NCBI GenBank assembly: GCA_003330885.1
Contig: CP030277.1
Coordinates: 3,212,001 to 3,276,000 of the forward strand
Origin: Rhodobiaceae bacterium
GTDB taxonomy: Bacteria; Pseudomonadota; Alphaproteobacteria; Parvibaculales; Parvibaculaceae
DNA: 64,000 bases
Direction of reading: 5' to 3'
The position numbers and the translations under genes are program-made. Every line of letters starts with the position of its first letter. Position 1 is the stretch's first letter. The notes below the pieces were generated by a model. The model was not told where the DNA came from. It ran no database searches and saw only the letters and a program-made list of their open reading frames with translations. Shown in pieces: positions 32,172-40,269 of this stretch.

Positions 32172-33038
32172 TTACTCAGCGGCCTTTTTTGTCGGCGCGG
32201 GGACGGCGTCTTCTTGCATGTCTTCCCATTGCGGCATGCCGACAATATTAAAGCCTGAATCTACATGATGGACTTCGCCAGTTACCCGTTTGGACAGGTC
32301 TGACAGCAGATAGAGGGCTGAGCCGCCCACATCATCCAGCTCAACGGTTTCTTTGAGCGGAGAGTGAGATTTATTCCACTTGAACACATAACGGGCAGAG
32401 CCGATGGCAGATCCAGCAAGTGTCCGCATGGGACCGGCAGAAAGCGCGTTGACGCGAATGCCTTTACGGCCAAGGTCGACAGAGAGATAGCGAACACTGG
32501 CTTCCAAGGCTGCTTTCGCCACACCCATCACATTGTAGTTCGGCATCACGCGTTCTGCGCCGGCATAGGTGAGCGTGATCATCGATCCGCCGTCCGGCAT
32601 CATTTCAGAGGCGCGGCGGGCAATGTCGGTGAAGGAATAGCAGGAGATTTCCATGGTCTGACGGAAATTGTCCCGCGTTGTATCCACATACTGGCCTTTA
32701 AGTTCGCTCTTGTCGGAATAGGCGACAGCGTGGACGATGAAATCAATCTTGCCCCATTTCTCTTTGAGCGCATCAAACAGCGTATCAAGGCTTGCTTCAT
32801 CCATGACATCACAGGGCAGCAGCAGGTCTGAGCCAAGAGATTCCGCCAATGGTTTCACTCGGCGTCCAAAGGCTTCGCCCTGATAGGTGAAGGCGAGTTC
32901 GGCGCCATGGGCGGCGGCCGCTTTAGCGATGCCCCAGGCAATGGAATGGTCGTTTGCGACACCCATAATGAGGCCTTTTCGGCCCGCAAGCAGGTCACCC
33001 GACTGAAATGCACTTCCGCGTGTCATCTCTGATGCCAC
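32172..33038 (-). CDS. fabI: Enoyl-[acyl-carrier-protein] reductase (NADH)
   Basis: Last reductive step of type II fatty acid elongation. The SDR-type fold has GLIMGVANDHSIAWGIAKAAA at the nucleotide site (FabI-type rather than GxxxGxG) and the Tyr-x6-Lys catalytic pair in YNVMGVAKAALEASVRYL. 288 residues. It lies 141 bp downstream of fabB on the same strand, and with fabA makes the leftward fabA-fabB-fabI set found beside irr in many rhizobia. FabI is the triclosan/diazaborine target in other bacteria. Confidence 0.95.
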   Translation of the reverse strand: MASEMTRGSAFQSGDLLAGRKGLIMGVANDHSIAWGIAKAAAAHGAELAFTYQGEAFGRRVKPLAESLGSDLLLPCDVMDEASLDTLFDALKEKWGKIDFIVHAVAYSDKSELKGQYVDTTRDNFRQTMEISCYSFTDIARRASEMMPDGGSMITLTYAGAERVMPNYNVMGVAKAALEASVRYLSVDLGRKGIRVNALSAGPMRTLAGSAIGSARYVFKWNKSHSPLKETVELDDVGGSALYLLSDLSKRVTGEVHHVDSGFNIVGMPQWEDMQEDAVPAPTKKAAE

Positions 33039-33179
33039 TCCTCAAATATTCTGTTGCGGCCGCCCCGTGAAGACAGAGTGTGCCGATATGAGACGTTCTG
33101 GTCACTCAACTATTAGGGGGAGCAAGCTCTGTGCCTCATTAACGGGTTGGGCCTCAGAGGATTTCCCCACCAATGCTGG

Positions 33180-34397
33180 TTAGCCGTTATACCGTTGGAA
33201 AACCAGGGATCCGTTTGTTCCGCCAAATCCAAAACTGTTAGACAGCACGGTGTTGAGTTCCGCATTGTCGATCCGTTCCCGGACAATGTTTGCGTGAGCA
33301 ACTTCCGGGTCGATTTCCTTAATGTTGGCAGACTCAGCAATAAAGCCGCTTTCCATCATCAGGAGAGAATAGATCGCTTCATGCACGCCAGCCGCACCCT
33401 GCGCGTGACCGCTGAGCGACTTGGTCGCGCTGATGGGCGGCATGTCGTCGCCAAACACTTCAGTGATCGCCGTGATCTCCGGAATGTCACCGACAGGCGT
33501 CGAGGTTGCGTGCGGGTTGATATAGTCAATCTTTTCACCAACGCCTTCGAGCGCGAGCTTCATGGCACGAACCGCACCTTCGCCGGACGGTGCCACCATA
33601 TCGGCGCCATCCGAGGTGGCGCCATAGCCCACAACTTCCGCGTAGATTTTCGCGCCGCGGGCTTTTGCATGTTCCAGTTCTTCAAGCACCAATGTGCCGC
33701 CACCCCCTGTGATGACAAAGCCGTCCCGGTTTACGTCATAGGCACGGCTCGCAACGGCAGGGGTATCGTTATACTTGGACGACATGGCACCCATGGCATC
33801 AAAGAGCGACGAAAGAGTCCAATCCAGTTCCTCACCGCCACCGGCAAACATCATGTCTTGCTTGCCCCATTGGATCTGCTCAACAGCGTTCCCAATACAG
33901 TGGGTCGATGTCGTGCACGCAGAGCTGATCGAATAGCTCGGTCCCTTAATCTTGAAGAGCGTCGAAAGGTTCGCAGAAACCGTGCTCGACATGGCCTTTG
34001 GTACGCTCGTTGGCCCAATCCGCTTGGGGCCCTTTTCGCGGGTAATGTCCGCTGCAGCGACAATCGCTTTTGTCGATGGTCCGCCCGATCCCAGAATGGC
34101 GCCCGTACGGTCATTGCTGACCTCGTTTGCTTCAAGGCCCGCGTCTCGGATTGCCTGATCCATCGCGATATAAGTGTAGGCCGCACCATCACCCATAAAC
34201 CGGCGTGTCTTGCGGTCGAGCACTTCTTCTAGATCAAGTTTCAGAGATCCGTGAACCTGACTGCGAAAGCCGAGCTCTGTGTACTTCTCAGCTGCCACAA
34301 TGCCTGACTTGGCTTCGCGAAGGCTGGAAACAACTTCCTGCACATTATTACCAAGGCTGGAAACAATGCCCATTCCGGTAACGACAACACGCCTCAT
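33180..34397 (-). CDS. fabB: 3-oxoacyl-[acyl-carrier-protein] synthase I
   Basis: Condensing enzyme that elongates acyl-ACP, including cis-unsaturated intermediates from FabA. The Cys-His-His triad is visible: C161 in [12 protein letters not shown], and histidines in [11 protein letters not shown] and [10 protein letters not shown]. 405 residues from the ATG at 34397 ([16 protein letters not shown]), which has GGAG upstream; the frame is open 39 bases further 5' but that part is not conserved. Partner gene fabA is 118 bp upstream on the same strand. Confidence 0.96.
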
Positions 34398-34515
34398 GGC
34401 TCTACTCCATGGCTGGGCGGGAAAACCCGCAATCAATTTCGGTTACCTCTTTTGTAACCCGAAAGTGGCTTTTCTGAGAAATCGCAATCCGACTGAATTT
34501 GTTCAGCCAGATTTC

Positions 34516-35028
34516 CTATTCTGACGGACCTTCGACCACAACGCGCAAGTCTTCTGCTTTGTAGATGGGTTCGCCATCGGCTTTCAGAATGCCGTCAGCG
34601 GTCAACATCACGATTTTGCGGTTGATGACCCGCTTAAGGTCGATCTCATATTCGATCTTCTTGACCTCAGGCGTCACCATGCCGGAAAAACGCACTGATC
34701 CAACACCAATGGCGCGTCCCTTGCCCTGGGCGCCCATCCAGCCGAGATAAAAGCCAACCAGCTGCCACATGCCATCAAGGCCAAGACAGCCTGGCATAAT
34801 CGGGTCGCCTTCGAAGTGGCATGGGAAGAACCAGCGGTCCTCAGTGATGTCATATTCCGCGCGAATAAGGCCCTTATCGTGGGCGCCGCCGGTATCCACA
34901 ATTTGGGTAATGCGGTCCATCATCAGCATGGGGGGGAGTGGCAACTGTGCATTGCCGGGGCCAAACAGGTCCCCATGCGCACATGCCAACAGGTCTTCAT
35001 ATGAATAGCTCGACTTTTGCTCAGCCAT
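34516..35028 (-). CDS. fabA: 3-hydroxydecanoyl-[acyl-carrier-protein] dehydratase/isomerase
   Basis: Dehydrates 3-hydroxydecanoyl-ACP and isomerises trans-2- to cis-3-decenoyl-ACP, starting anaerobic-type unsaturated fatty acid synthesis. Catalytic H71 ([11 protein letters not shown]) and D85 ([11 protein letters not shown]) correspond to H70 and D84 of E. coli. 170 residues, standard. It heads the leftward fabA-fabB operon and diverges from irr across 298 bp (35029-35326), which hold the irr-proximal palindrome at 35248 and no other gene I can see. Confidence 0.97.
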
Positions 35029-35247: not shown

Positions 35248-35266
35248 GTTTGTAATCGTTACAAAC
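35248..35266. promoter_or_regulatory. Perfect 8-bp-arm palindrome before irr (candidate operator)
   Basis: GTTTGTAATCGTTACAAAC: arms GTTTGTAA and TTACAAAC, 3-base centre. It lies 60 bp upstream of the irr start codon in a Fur-superfamily neighbourhood. Size and symmetry resemble Fur/Irr-type boxes, but the half-sites differ from the ICE consensus. TTGACA at 35210-35215 could be a -35, though no good -10 follows. Confidence 0.55.
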
Positions 35267-35326: not shown

Positions 35327-35743
35327 ATGACGGATCGTCCTTATAGTCAGACTTTGGCCCGCCTCCGTGAGGCAGGACTTCGACCCACCCGCCAGCGCCT
35401 CGCGCTTGGACGGCTGCTCTTTGACGAAGGTGATTGTCATGTGACCGCTGAACGCTTGCACGAGCAGGCGCAGGAGGTGGGCGTCTCTGTGTCGCTGGCC
35501 ACTGTCTACAATACGCTGCACCAATTCACCGAAGTGGGACTTCTGCGTGAGGTTGTCGTCGACAGTTCACGAACCTATTTCGATACCAACATCTCCGATC
35601 ATCACCATATCTTCCACGAAGATGAGGGCAGCCTGACCGATATTTCAGGCCAGATGATCGACGTGGCGGGCCTGCCGGATGTGCCCGAAGGAACTGAACT
35701 CTCTCGCGTTGATGTTGTTGTTCGGGTGCGCAACAGCTCTTGA
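35327..35743 (+). CDS. irr: Iron response regulator Irr (Fur superfamily)
   Basis: Haem-responsive regulator that represses or activates iron genes under iron limitation in alphaproteobacteria. 138 residues with the winged helix (LREAGLRPTRQRLALGRLLF, VSLATVYNTLHQFTEVGLL) and the HHH motif at residues 92-94 (SDHHHIFHEDEG) implicated in haem/metal sensing. It lacks the N-terminal GCPWC haem regulatory motif of Bradyrhizobium Irr, as many family members do. ATG 35327 was chosen; reading further 5' would enter the operator-bearing spacer. Divergent fabA and downstream rubrerythrin are typical neighbours. Confidence 0.93.
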   Translation: MTDRPYSQTLARLREAGLRPTRQRLALGRLLFDEGDCHVTAERLHEQAQEVGVSVSLATVYNTLHQFTEVGLLREVVVDSSRTYFDTNISDHHHIFHEDEGSLTDISGQMIDVAGLPDVPEGTELSRVDVVVRVRNSS

Positions 35744-35890: not shown

Positions 35891-36310
35891 ATGTCGCTAG
35901 CAGGGTCTAAGACCGAAGGTAATCTCAAAGATGCGTTTGCAGGCGAAAGCCAGGCAAACCGCCGCTATCTCTACTTCGCCCAAAAGGCCGATGTAGAAGG
36001 CTACAACGACGTGGCAACTGTTTTCCGCTCGACTGCGGAAGGCGAAACCGGCCACGCGCACGGCCATCTGGAATTTCTGGAAGCTGTGGGTGACCCGGCA
36101 ACGGGCGAGCCAATCGGCAGCACAGACCTGAACCTCAAAGCGGCGATTGCGGGCGAAACCCATGAATATACGGATATGTATCCGGGCATGGCACGCACAG
36201 CACGCGAAGAAGGTTTTGACGAAATCGCAGACTGGTTCGAAACGCTTGCAAAAGCTGAAAAGAGCCACGCGGGTCGTTTCCAAAAAGCCCTCGACAATCT
36301 CGACGACTAA
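35891..36310 (+). CDS. Rubrerythrin (erythrin-type, no rubredoxin domain)
   Basis: Di-iron four-helix-bundle protein of 139 residues. Ligand motifs: E19 ([11 protein letters not shown]), E52-x-x-H55 ([10 protein letters not shown]), an [17 protein letters not shown] helix, and a last ExxH in AEKSHAGRF. The C-terminal rubredoxin domain of classical rubrerythrins is absent, so an external electron donor is needed if it reduces peroxide. ATG 35891 follows GGCGAGGAGAACGCA. It lies downstream of irr with an Irr-type box, and upstream of an Fe-S oxidoreductase and DUF3501 genes likely to be partners. Confidence 0.93.
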
Positions 36311-36320
36311 AGTAAGCGCA

Positions 36321-36356
36321 GGGCGGTCTAAACAAATAGACCGCCCTCATTCTTTC
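36321..36356 (+). terminator. Hairpin terminator after rubrerythrin
   Basis: GGGCGGTCTA (36321-36330) and TAGACCGCCC (36337-36346) are perfectly complementary over 10 bp, loop AACAAA, followed by TCATTCTTTC. The next gene starts 40 bp later, so this may be a partial terminator or mRNA stabiliser within the cluster. Confidence 0.75.
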
Positions 36357-36385
36357 ATGCGCAAGAGAAACAGAGAAAGTCTGGC

Positions 36386-37753
36386 ATGAGCAGAGAAGGC
36401 AGCTTGGATGCCCCAACGCGGCATCCGATAGATTGGCAGAATCCTGACTTTTACAATCGCGATCAGCTGGACGAAGAGCTTCGTCGAGTGTTCGACATCT
36501 GCCATGGCTGCAGGCGCTGCTTCAATCTTTGTGATAGCTTCCCGCAGCTCTTTGATCTGATCGATGACAGCGACAGCGGTGAGCTGGACAGCGTGTCGAG
36601 CGATGATTTTGGTCCTGTAGTCGATGCATGCACGCTCTGCGACATGTGCTTTATGACCAAATGTCCTTACGTGCCACCTCATGAATTCAATCTTGATTTC
36701 CCCCATCTCATGCTGCGCTATCGCGCCATCGAAACCAAGGCAGCGGGTGGCCCTCCTTTTGTGCCGGGACAGCTCGCGAAGATGGATCGCAACGGCAAGC
36801 TGGCGGCACCCGTTGCTGGGATCGCGAACTGGGGATCAAAACGATCCAACAAATTGACGCGCCCGGTGATGGAAAAAGTCGCAGGCATTGATGCCCGCGC
36901 AGAGTTGCCGAAATTTGCTGGCAAGACCTTCATGATGCGCGCCAAGGCGGAAGATGCCGCGGGCACGCTGACCGTGAATGCAAAGGCACCCGGCAAAGGC
37001 CGCAAAGCCGCGCTCTTCGCCACCTGTTTTGTGAATTACAACAATCCGACTGTCGGTGAGGCAGCGCGCAAACTGCTCGCGCACATCGGTGTCGACACGC
37101 AGCCCGCCTATCCCGGCTGTTGCGGCATGCCGCACCTTGAAAGCGGCAATATCGAGAAGGTGGCGGACCAGGCGCGAAAGGTTTCAACTGAACTGAAGCC
37201 GCTCATCGATGAGGGCTATGACATTATCGCGCTCACCGCGTCCTGCGGTTTGATGCTGAAATTTGAGTGGCCGCTTATCCTGCCCGATGACGAGAATGTA
37301 AAAGCTCTGTCAGAGGCAACCTTCGATGTGGATGAATATGTTGTCGACATTGCGAAGAAGGAAGGCCTGCCCGACGGCATGATCCCTGTTGAGGGCGGCG
37401 TCACAGCGCACCTTGCCTGCCATGCCCGGGCTCAGAATATGGGGCCAAAGTCAGCTGAGATGATGCGGCTGATCCCGGATACAAAAATTGATGTGGTTGA
37501 GCGCTGTTCGGGCCATGGCGGTACCTTTGGCGTCATGAAGGATACGTTCGACCTTGCGATGAAGGTCGGCAAGACGGCGGCACGCAATGTCGCCAAAACC
37601 GAAAACAAATATGTAACGTCTGATTGTCCACTTGCTGCCAAACATCTCGTACACGAAGTCGAGACGCTCAACGGAGACGCAGATCCTAAACCTCTGCCGC
37701 AAGCCCAACACCCGATTGAAATAATGGCCCGTGCTTATGGCCTGATTAACTAA
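36386..37753 (+). CDS. Fe-S oxidoreductase, GlpC/HdrD-like with CCG domains
   Basis: 455-residue cytoplasmic protein. Two [4Fe-4S] ferredoxin-type sites lie at C39-C42-C45-C49 (CHGCRRCFNLC) and C82-C85-C88-C93 (CTLCDMCFMTKC). Two CCG-type domains follow: PGCCGMPHLESG in the first, and in the second ERCSGHGGTFG, where the usual CCG is CSG. This architecture resembles GlpC and HdrD electron-transfer subunits, but there is no partner dehydrogenase beside it. Between rubrerythrin and DUF3501, it is a good candidate electron donor to rubrerythrin (inference). The stop codon overlaps a class A repeat. Confidence 0.88.
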   Translation: MSREGSLDAPTRHPIDWQNPDFYNRDQLDEELRRVFDICHGCRRCFNLCDSFPQLFDLIDDSDSGELDSVSSDDFGPVVDACTLCDMCFMTKCPYVPPHEFNLDFPHLMLRYRAIETKAAGGPPFVPGQLAKMDRNGKLAAPVAGIANWGSKRSNKLTRPVMEKVAGIDARAELPKFAGKTFMMRAKAEDAAGTLTVNAKAPGKGRKAALFATCFVNYNNPTVGEAARKLLAHIGVDTQPAYPGCCGMPHLESGNIEKVADQARKVSTELKPLIDEGYDIIALTASCGLMLKFEWPLILPDDENVKALSEATFDVDEYVVDIAKKEGLPDGMIPVEGGVTAHLACHARAQNMGPKSAEMMRLIPDTKIDVVERCSGHGGTFGVMKDTFDLAMKVGKTAARNVAKTENKYVTSDCPLAAKHLVHEVETLNGDADPKPLPQAQHPIEIMARAYGLIN

Positions 37754-37812
37754 AGCGTTTCCAGGAAAAGTGGCCAGGTCCAACTTGGCGGTTTTCCGTC
37801 CGGAAACGCGTC
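37752..37812 (+). repeat. Palindromic intergenic element, class A, overlapping a stop codon
   Basis: Outer arms GCGTTTCC / GGAAACGC are perfect. Inner GGAAAA / TTTTCC pairing, with a further CCAGGT...ACTTGG-like loop pairing, makes this the longest regular copy. Its first bases are the last two of the TAA stop of the Fe-S oxidoreductase gene. Confidence 0.8.
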
Positions 37813-37837
37813 AACAGATTTGACAGAGAGACGTAGA

Positions 37838-38431
37838 ATGAGTGCTGCCCGCAAATCCATTTCGCCCGACGACATTCTCGACATGCAAACCTATGAGGGC
37901 GAGCGGAATGATCGTCGCGCGCGCCTGCGCGATATCAAACGCGACCGCCGCGTGGAAGTAGGGCCCAGTGTGACCTTTTATTTTGAGAGCTACGACACCA
38001 TGCTGCACCAGATCCACGAGATGCTGCGCATTGAGGGCGGCGGCGACGAACAGTTGAAAGATGAGTTGGAGGCTTACAACCCGCTGATCCCGCAGGGCCG
38101 TGATCTGGTCGCGACGCTTATGTTTGAGATTGATGATGAAGTCCGGCGCGATCGCATGTTGCGTCAACTCTCCCATGTGGAAGAGACCTGCTATCTGCAG
38201 GTGGGCGATCAGAAGATCATGGCGCGGGCGGAAGATGATGTAGAGCGTACAAAGGATGACGGCAAAACATCGTCTATTCATTTCCTGCATTTTGATCTGA
38301 GCGATGCCCAGGCCGAGGCCTTCAAGAATGGAGACGTTATTGTCTCCGTTGGCATTGGACATGAGAACTACGCCCATGCAGCAGGTCTGAGTAAGTCTGT
38401 ACGGTCTGCACTGGGTGGCGATCTCGACTAG
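37838..38431 (+). CDS. DUF3501 family protein
   Basis: Protein of unknown function, 197 residues, no signal peptide or membrane segment. Conserved-looking parts include RRARLRDIKRDRRVEVGP, TFYFESYDTMLHQIHEMLRIE, ELEAYNPLIPQGRDLVATLMFEID and the C-terminal IGHENYAHAA. A histidine- and glutamate-rich central helix (LHQIHEMLRIEGG) could bind metal, but this is a guess. DUF3501 genes are usually found beside CCG-type Fe-S oxidoreductases and rubrerythrins, as here, which supports a shared function. ATG 37838; the stop overlaps another class A repeat. Confidence 0.85.
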   Translation: MSAARKSISPDDILDMQTYEGERNDRRARLRDIKRDRRVEVGPSVTFYFESYDTMLHQIHEMLRIEGGGDEQLKDELEAYNPLIPQGRDLVATLMFEIDDEVRRDRMLRQLSHVEETCYLQVGDQKIMARAEDDVERTKDDGKTSSIHFLHFDLSDAQAEAFKNGDVIVSVGIGHENYAHAAGLSKSVRSALGGDLD

Positions 38432-38478
38432 AGCATTTCCAACAAAAGTTGCAGACTTTTGTGGTTCGAAAATGCGAC
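38430..38478 (+). repeat. Palindromic intergenic element, class A, overlapping a stop codon
   Basis: Inner arms ACAAAAGT / ACTTTTGT are perfect over 8 bp, and outer arms GCATTT / AAATGC (38433-38438 with 38470-38475) are perfect. It begins on the TAG stop of the DUF3501 gene. Both stems differ from the copy at 37752 with matched changes. Confidence 0.8.
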
Positions 38479-38543
38479 AGACAAAAAGAGTCAGACAGGT
38501 GTTTGTTAGTCAGTAAAGAAGCGAAACGCTTTAGGGTGCCGCT

Positions 38544-39270: not shown

Positions 39271-40269
39271 ATGGCTACAACGCCCGAAAAGCCTCTTGTC
39301 ATTGTCACCCGCAAATTGCCGGATGCCATCGAAACGCGTTTGGGCGAACTCTTTGAGACCCGGCTCAACGAGAGCGATGAACCTATGAGCCAATCAGCAC
39401 TGGCGAACGCCATGCGCGAGGCTGACGTGCTGGTGCCGACCGTGACCGACCGTATTGACGGGCGGCTTATGGCGCAGGCGGGCGATAAGCTTCGCCTGAT
39501 TGCCCAGTTTGGAACCGGCGTCGACAATATTGATGTGGAAAGCGCAATCGCCAGAGGCATCACCGTCACCAACACACCCAGCGTTTTGACAGAAGACACA
39601 GCGGATATGACCATGGCGCTGATCCTCTCTGTGCCACGGCGTCTGGTGGAAGGGGTCGACTATCTTCAGGCACGCGCGGCCACCTGGACCGGTTGGTCAC
39701 CCACCTGGATGTTGGGTCGGCGTATTGGCGGCAAGAAGCTCGGCATTCTGGGCATGGGGCGCATAGGCCAGGCAGTGGCGCGCCGCGCCAAGGCATTTGG
39801 CTTGGACATTCACTATCACAATCGCCATCAACTGAGCGCAGGAGTGGAAGAAGAGCTTCGCGCGACTTACTGGGAGAGCCTTGATGCCATGTTGGCTGAG
39901 GTTGATATCCTCTCGGTCAATTGCCCGCATACGCCCGCGACCTATCATCTGCTCAATACGAAGCGTCTGAAGCTCATGAAGCCCGAAGCCTATATCGTGA
40001 ATACGGCACGTGGCGAAGTGATTGACGAAAATGCCCTGGTGCACGCCTTGGAGAATGAAGAGATCGCCGGCGCGGGGCTTGATGTGTTTGAGCAGGAACC
40101 AGCGGTGAACCAGTCGCTCGTCAATCACTCCAAGGTTGTGTTGCTGCCGCATATGGCGTCAGCGACATTTGAGGGACGGATGGAAATGGGTGAGAAGGTG
40201 CTGATCAATATCCGCACCTGGGTCGACGGGCACAAGCCACCAGACCGGGTGATCCCTGCGATACTCTAA
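39271..40269 (+). CDS. D-2-hydroxyacid dehydrogenase (glyoxylate/hydroxypyruvate reductase-like)
   Basis: NAD(P)H-dependent reductase of 332 residues. The Rossmann motif is LGILGMGRIGQAVARRAKAFG. The catalytic set appears as arginine in VNTARGEVIDENAL, glutamate in DVFEQEP and histidine in LLPHMASAT. Resembles GyaR/GhrB-type reductases; phosphoglycerate dehydrogenase is less likely, given the length and lack of ACT domain. It converges on the MoeB-like gene with stop codons directly adjacent and no spacer. Confidence 0.88.
   Translation: MATTPEKPLVIVTRKLPDAIETRLGELFETRLNESDEPMSQSALANAMREADVLVPTVTDRIDGRLMAQAGDKLRLIAQFGTGVDNIDVESAIARGITVTNTPSVLTEDTADMTMALILSVPRRLVEGVDYLQARAATWTGWSPTWMLGRRIGGKKLGILGMGRIGQAVARRAKAFGLDIHYHNRHQLSAGVEEELRATYWESLDAMLAEVDILSVNCPHTPATYHLLNTKRLKLMKPEAYIVNTARGEVIDENALVHALENEEIAGAGLDVFEQEPAVNQSLVNHSKVVLLPHMASATFEGRMEMGEKVLINIRTWVDGHKPPDRVIPAIL

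Follow-up and report, generated by a model that had tools for sequence, protein, structure and literature searches.

A rubrerythrin, RFO and DUF3501 module next to irr in a Rhodobiaceae bacterium, probably under Irr control

We analyzed three genes in a 64,000-nucleotide stretch of the genome of a Rhodobiaceae bacterium (assembly GCA_003330885.1, contig CP030277.1, positions 3,212,001 to 3,276,000; hereafter the window). They lie downstream of irr, which encodes a Fur-family heme and iron regulator, and share its strand (+): rbr codes for a rubrerythrin (RBR), rfo for an Fe-S oxidoreductase (RFO), and the third gene for a DUF3501 protein. The trio is a member of a known aerobic-type rubrerythrin module. 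We give about an even chance to the reading that it constitutes an Irr-controlled peroxide reductase, in which RBR would be fed by RFO, DUF3501 would be a partner protein and a hairpin after rbr would set the stoichiometry. Gene order, co-occurrence, the conservation of an Irr box (ICE) and of the hairpin, and the ligand residues come from the sequences themselves.

Results

A published module in conserved order

The aerobic-type module of RBR, RFO and DUF3501 was described by Cardenas, Quatrini and Holmes in 2016 (PMC5114695). They introduced the name RFO, counted all three families together in 185 of 4461 genomes and proposed that RFO compensates for a lost rubredoxin; in Nitrosomonas, RFO and DUF3501 are fused. 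The window locus has the same three families in the same order and likewise no rubredoxin domain, and thus belongs to this module. The ICE, the hairpin and a CSG signature in RFO are added here to that description; a term search of the text of PMC5114695 did not find Irr, Fur, promoter or transcriptional regulator. Later work recorded the module in protists, where mitochondrial targeting is predicted (PMC7050145), and in an operon from a hot spring (PMC7852563).

A first-pass annotation of the window had placed a rubrerythrin without rubredoxin, an Fe-S oxidoreductase and DUF3501 at 35891-38431, on one strand and beside irr, all of which was borne out (Table 1). RBR matches PF02915 and, weakly, ferritin only, and it contains neither a cysteine nor a rubredoxin domain. 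The DUF3501 protein matches PF12007 over its full length (positions 2-187 of 187, profile search). The window Irr passes the cut-off of the IrrA family, and H92 and H94 of its HxH motif are present in 73 of 74 aligned Irr proteins.

Table 1. Coordinates of the module and its flanking signals in the window.
Feature	Position	Strand	Evidence
irr, Fur-family heme/iron regulator	35327..35743	+	NCBIfam NF045678 IrrA 213 bits, cut-off 150
ICE / Irr-box match TTTAGAAGAATTGTAAA	35775..35791	.	13/14; 99 nt upstream of rbr start codon; position conserved in 67/81 loci
rbr, 139-aa aerobic-type rubrerythrin lacking a rubredoxin domain	35891..36310	+	PF02915 108 bits
GC-rich hairpin in the rbr-rfo gap, 11 pairs	36320..36347	+	z -5.1
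rfo, GlpC-like Fe-S oxidoreductase, 455 aa	36386..37753	+	PF02754 CCG, two stretches
DUF3501 gene, 197 aa	37838..38431	+	PF12007 199 bits, cut-off 25; 37838 is the best start

The annotation had also expected the three families to occur as a unit; this check was already published, because the module had been described in 2016, and our counts agree with it. We screened 240 alphaproteobacterial genomes, a set that includes the window's own genome and two of the same genus. DUF3501 was present in 120, RFO (counted at E ≤ 1e-40) in 116 and aerobic-type RBR in 120, the RBR threshold of at least 181 bits having been drawn after we saw a gap between 181.5 and 143.1 bits; of 141 genomes with RBR matches, this threshold leaves out 21. 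All three families occurred in 114 genomes and none of them in 115. DUF3501 and RFO were found together in 116 genomes, DUF3501 alone in 4, RFO alone in 0 and neither in 120 (Fisher P 2e-64, for genomes that are not phylogenetically independent). Among 200 drawn Pseudomonadota genomes, 11 carried DUF3501.

To describe the loci, we used the window and 80 neighborhoods picked by contig position out of the 120 RBR genomes (L032-L111); a second set (L122-L201) shares organisms with the first and is not independent of it. The genes rbr, rfo and DUF3501 were co-located in 79 of the 81 loci, and the order irr-rbr-rfo-DUF3501 on one strand was found in 73 of 81. Among 80 named loci, a set with several members truncated at contig ends, 61 showed it. 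In G065, G185 (L216, L217), G141, G152 and G196, DUF3501 is separated from rbr-rfo, on another contig or about 50 kb away, and because of these cases the linkage is not obligatory.

An Irr-box match upstream of rbr

Of the 120 RBR genomes, 104 have irr no more than 2 kb from rbr, and 10 have no irr match; across all genomes irr was counted in 145 at E ≤ 1e-30, 128 of them over the family cut-off. We took the ICE consensus to be TTTAGAA-N3-TTCTAAA and scanned 250 nt upstream of each gene, with a match defined as at least 11 of 14 positions. The passages on Irr boxes in PMC3413700 and PMC7762939 do not print this consensus. A match was found upstream of rbr in 67 of 81 loci, upstream of rfo in 1 of 81 and upstream of DUF3501 in 1 of 79. 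The other spacers from 0 to 7 gave at most 13 loci, 139 permuted half-sites a median of 1 and a largest value of 25 loci, and dinucleotide shuffles reached 11/14 in 6 of 405 cases. The partly overlapping second set had a match in 56 of 72 loci, and all seven Pelagibacteraceae loci (7/7) carried one. Eleven loci have no adjacent irr: four of Methylocystaceae type have the ICE, and seven, which include all four Phenylobacterium/Caulobacteraceae loci, do not. Autoregulation through an ICE upstream of irr was also considered, and the case for it is weak (16 of 74 loci).

Within the window's own genome, ICE sites with at most one mismatch precede rbr, a PF00141 peroxidase gene, a Dps-like ferritin gene and an outer-membrane protein gene. 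Genome-wide there were 8 sites compared to 10 for a reversed-pattern control, that is, no excess, and the argument for the ICE is therefore carried by where the site lies and how well it is kept. The PF00141 peroxidase gene, whose product we take from its N-terminus to be KatG, is preceded by two ICE-like sites separated by 31 nt, the second with two mismatches (G000:C1:1000284-1000331; L203, L207). The site of the Dps-like ferritin gene lies 58 nt before it (G000:C1:2002280-2002296; L204), with a divergent M48 peptidase gene opposite.

Together, these data suggest that the window module is probably under Irr control. Known targets of repression by Irr in Bradyrhizobium are bfr and mbfA, the latter a rubrerythrin-like gene (PMC3413700). 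In the regulon that Irr controls through ICE sites in Rhizobiales and Rhodobacter (bfr, mbfA and ccpA), the operator consensus is the same as here, and so is the kind of target, iron-rich proteins of peroxide defence (PMC3413700). MbfA, however, is a membrane-linked rubrerythrin-like iron exporter, unlike the window RBR, and the regulon passages of that source make no mention of RFO or DUF3501. We found no coupling of Irr with RFO or DUF3501 in the literature surveyed, and likewise no account there of the link to irr and the ICE, of the hairpin, or of the CSGH signature and the joint losses described below; the main computational Irr regulon study (Rodionov 2006) lies outside this coverage. 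The link to peroxide and iron that the first-pass annotation had drawn is strengthened by the irr adjacency, the conserved ICE, the peroxidase and Dps-like ferritin at other ICE sites, and the di-iron ligands of RBR.

RBR and the hairpin that follows its gene

The putative di-iron ligand residues of RBR, E19, E52, H55, E89, E92, E123 and H126, whose positions follow Desulfovibrio vulgaris rubrerythrin, are kept in 81 of 81 proteins. Its nearest solved relatives are rubrerythrins (9onm, 4di0, 8fuh and others, including Burkholderia pseudomallei Rbr) and sulerythrin (8e-52). Ferriperoxin (Fpx) of Hydrogenobacter is a related single-domain rubrerythrin and a proven peroxidase (PMC3317640); per the papers, Fpx and sulerythrin are single-domain rubrerythrins of the same lineage as the RBR studied here. 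In Magnetospirillum, a rubrerythrin that may be of a different lineage fell 2.1-fold under anoxic conditions (PMC9549626).

Between rbr and rfo, 59 of 79 loci have a GC-rich hairpin with 8 or more pairs (mean of shuffles 11.45, maximum 18), as do 60 of 72 loci of the second set (mean of shuffles 8.85), and the examples differ in sequence. Such a hairpin was present in 3 of 72 gaps between rfo and DUF3501, which have a median length of 29.5 nt, and in 24 of 72 gaps between irr and rbr (shuffles: mean 8). At 84 nt, the window's own rfo-DUF3501 gap exceeds the median for this gap, and its folding is strong too.

A distinctive second CCG domain in RFO

RFO consists of two N-terminal 4Fe-4S motifs followed by two CCG domains. 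The first-pass annotation had described an eight-cysteine, two-cluster oxidoreductase of the CCG family; the family assignment holds, while the count falls short, as 15 cysteines are conserved in 81 of 81 relatives. Eight of them lie in the N-terminal motifs (C39-C49, C82-C93), four in the first CCG domain (C214, C245, C246, C287) and three in the second (C345, C374, C414). In an alignment to Escherichia coli GlpC, C330 and C372 of GlpC correspond to S375 and A417 of RFO, and the remaining cluster cysteines of RFO all have a cysteine partner. The CSG in the second domain had been regarded as a change in a usual ligand, which is correct relative to GlpC. As an anomaly of this protein it is ruled out, given that it is fixed across the family: position 375 is Ser in 76, Ala in 5 and Cys in 0 of 81 proteins, and CSG recurs in six more RFOs, five of which are only 38-45% identical. 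The following residue, H377, is invariant (81 of 81 proteins) and is a His in the six further RFOs as well. Judged by sequence, C-[SA]-G-H is a signature of the RFO family, and the second CCG domain retains three cysteines and perhaps a His. The ligand set C..CC..CXXC, which we take to be that of the HdrB-type noncubane cluster, was not found in either domain, the first lacking its last cysteine and the second two.

RFO scored below the GlpC equivalog cut-offs (NF008369, 182.6 compared to 278 bits; TIGR03379, 111.7 compared to 279.9). A structure model built with the window protein and 34 of 78 relatives (pLDDT 89.6) matched mycobacterial EtfD over 371 residues (Z 22.8) and, over the CCG half, LutA (an integrative model, Z 24.3) and HdrB (Z ~20); the H. 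pylori protein 3kwl was matched as well (Z 16.5). A sequence search of the PDB with RFO returned a single row at chance level. Like RFO, the CCG proteins GlpC, EtfD, LutA and HdrB have a pair of 4Fe-4S motifs at the N-terminus and a pair of CCG domains; RFO differs from them in the C-[SA]-G-H of its second domain, which has no CXXC.

DUF3501 has no conserved cysteine

The first-pass annotation had pictured DUF3501 as a link in a redox chain. This idea is weakened: the family has no conserved cysteine, and 38 of 79 members have no cysteine at all, on which ground we reject a thiol or Fe-S carrier; because of this, DUF3501 itself is unlikely to carry electrons. The acidic residues E50, E61, E66 and E76 are invariant (79 of 79), and the family has near-invariant His as well. 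The window protein matches 3fjv in sequence (2.5e-31), a B. pseudomallei protein of unknown function released in 2009. The same entry was the sole clear structural match (Z 25.4) of a model built with the window protein and 57 of 80 relatives (pLDDT 93.9). We drew no function from the fold because the other rows, mostly Ig-like sandwiches with Z ≤ 7.1 (a low-scoring one being 2hvb, Z 4.3), are at the level of a common arrangement.

Natural losses of rfo and DUF3501

Five genomes (G016, G033, G162, G164 and G169) lack both rfo and DUF3501 and still have rbr within 2 kb of irr. In G016, G033 and G162 the pair seems to have been cut out of an otherwise similar place, because rbr is followed there by an open frame that, by eye, looks like the dehydrogenase encoded at 39271-40269 in the window. 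The ICE is present in one of the five; upstream of rbr the other four are GC-rich (0.59-0.70). E92, which we take to be the counterpart of the movable Glu of D. vulgaris rubrerythrin, is Asp in three of the five and Glu in 81 of 81 main-set loci. The tie between this change and the loss of the pair is suggestive only, because two of the three Asp genomes share a genus.

DUF3501 without RFO was recorded in four genomes (G007, G112, G127 and G181). The match is partial in G007 and G127 and lies at a contig start in G127 and G181. G112 is a real exception at the locus, a natural two-gene rbr-DUF3501 version: in this 81% complete genome, rbr adjoins an intact DUF3501 frame (L218, 4741-5955), no RFO was found between them or elsewhere, and the locus has neither an adjacent irr nor an ICE (10/14).

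Discussion

In the peroxide reductase that we propose, RBR would reduce H2O2 at its di-iron site, and RFO, as an EtfD/GlpC-like chain of Fe-S clusters, would supply electrons as rubredoxin does in classical rubrerythrins. DUF3501 would be a partner protein for docking or maturation and no redox carrier. At low heme or iron, Irr bound at the ICE would hold the iron-costly module off, and at high iron, hence under Fenton risk, it would let the module on. The hairpin after rbr would lead to abundant rubrerythrin and scarce RFO and DUF3501, as would fit an enzyme and its reductase. Electron flow, the role of DUF3501, the sign of regulation and the stoichiometry are thus the parts of the scheme that we infer. 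More tentatively, and leaning towards doubt, we extend this scheme to a system that Irr and the ICE would tie to heme status in a large part of the Alphaproteobacteria, one that may predate the mitochondrial ancestor and in which RFO and DUF3501 would form a dedicated low-abundance reductase unit feeding an abundant, iron-sensed RBR. Where the unit is lost, RBR would lose its Irr operator and its movable Glu and change function, and the CSGH second CCG domain would be a specialized electron-transfer cluster site and not one for disulfide chemistry.

Several observations weigh against the Irr-controlled, RFO-fed reductase. Fpx received its electrons from FNR and NADPH without RFO, which does not appear as a donor in the abstract and Discussion of PMC3317640. 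RBR and DUF3501 occur without RFO in G112 and in 25 organisms listed in PMC5114695. On the regulatory side, 14 of the 81 loci score below 11/14 for the ICE, the number of ICE sites in the window's genome does not exceed its control, and a Pelagibacter rbr, possibly of a different lineage, was up 1.57-fold under iron shortage (PMC2864753), contrary to simple repression, in a family whose loci all carry the ICE (7/7). Finally, only 18 of the 59 rbr-rfo hairpins have a T-rich tail, so that the hairpin could end transcription, slow it down, or stabilize the rbr message instead.

Some of these points would fit a different division of labor, in which DUF3501 is a metal-loading or assembly factor for RBR, RFO is its reductant that keeps iron ferrous, and a general ferredoxin/FNR system is the donor of RBR. 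The work of Fpx with FNR and the RBR-DUF3501 pairs without RFO agree with this, as do the invariant acids and near-invariant His of DUF3501 next to its lack of a conserved cysteine. On the other hand, RFO never occurs without DUF3501 (0 of 116) and is fused to it in Nitrosomonas, which ties DUF3501 to RFO as well, and five genomes keep rbr with neither; we hold this explanation to be unlikely. Quite unlikely, in our view, is the opposite sign of control, with Irr acting as an activator of the module when iron is low. An ICE can act positively or negatively depending on its position (review PMC7762939), and the Pelagibacter response points in this direction; yet the products of the module need much iron, a peroxidase and a Dps-like ferritin are the other ICE neighbors in this genome, and bfr and mbfA are repressed by Irr in Bradyrhizobium. 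It is less probable still that the irr linkage and the palindrome reflect neighborhood inheritance only, with the module constitutive or responsive to peroxide through another regulator. This would agree with OxyR adjoining the module in Sideroxydans (PMC7852563), with the 10 RBR genomes without an irr match and with a genome-wide ICE number equal to the control. It accounts poorly for an ICE with an exact spacer that is confined to one place (rbr 67/81, rfo 1/81), is kept in four Methylocystaceae-type loci without adjacent irr and is missing in four of Caulobacteraceae type.

The structure of DUF3501 is solved (3fjv) and its gene context has been in print since 2016, but no assigned function was found in the literature surveyed. 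The position of the module behind irr and an ICE, the hairpin that parts rbr from the genes of its presumed reductase, and the genomes that have lost RFO and DUF3501 together open direct tests of what these two do, which bears on how aerobic bacteria and some protist mitochondria power a rubrerythrin without rubredoxin.

Neighboring features

Genes resembling, by eye, fabI, fabB and fabA diverge from irr (window 32172-35028, - strand). A perfect palindrome, TTTGTAATCGTTACAAA, at 35249-35265, about 62 nt upstream of irr, is retained in two genomes of the same genus and is a possible candidate operator of another Fur-family protein. Palindromic intergenic elements with related left ends follow rfo (37752-37810) and DUF3501 (38430-38480). 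No second close copy of the 59-nt element after rfo was found within the window. This element folds strongly (z -4.1), and both may be dispersed repeats of this genome.

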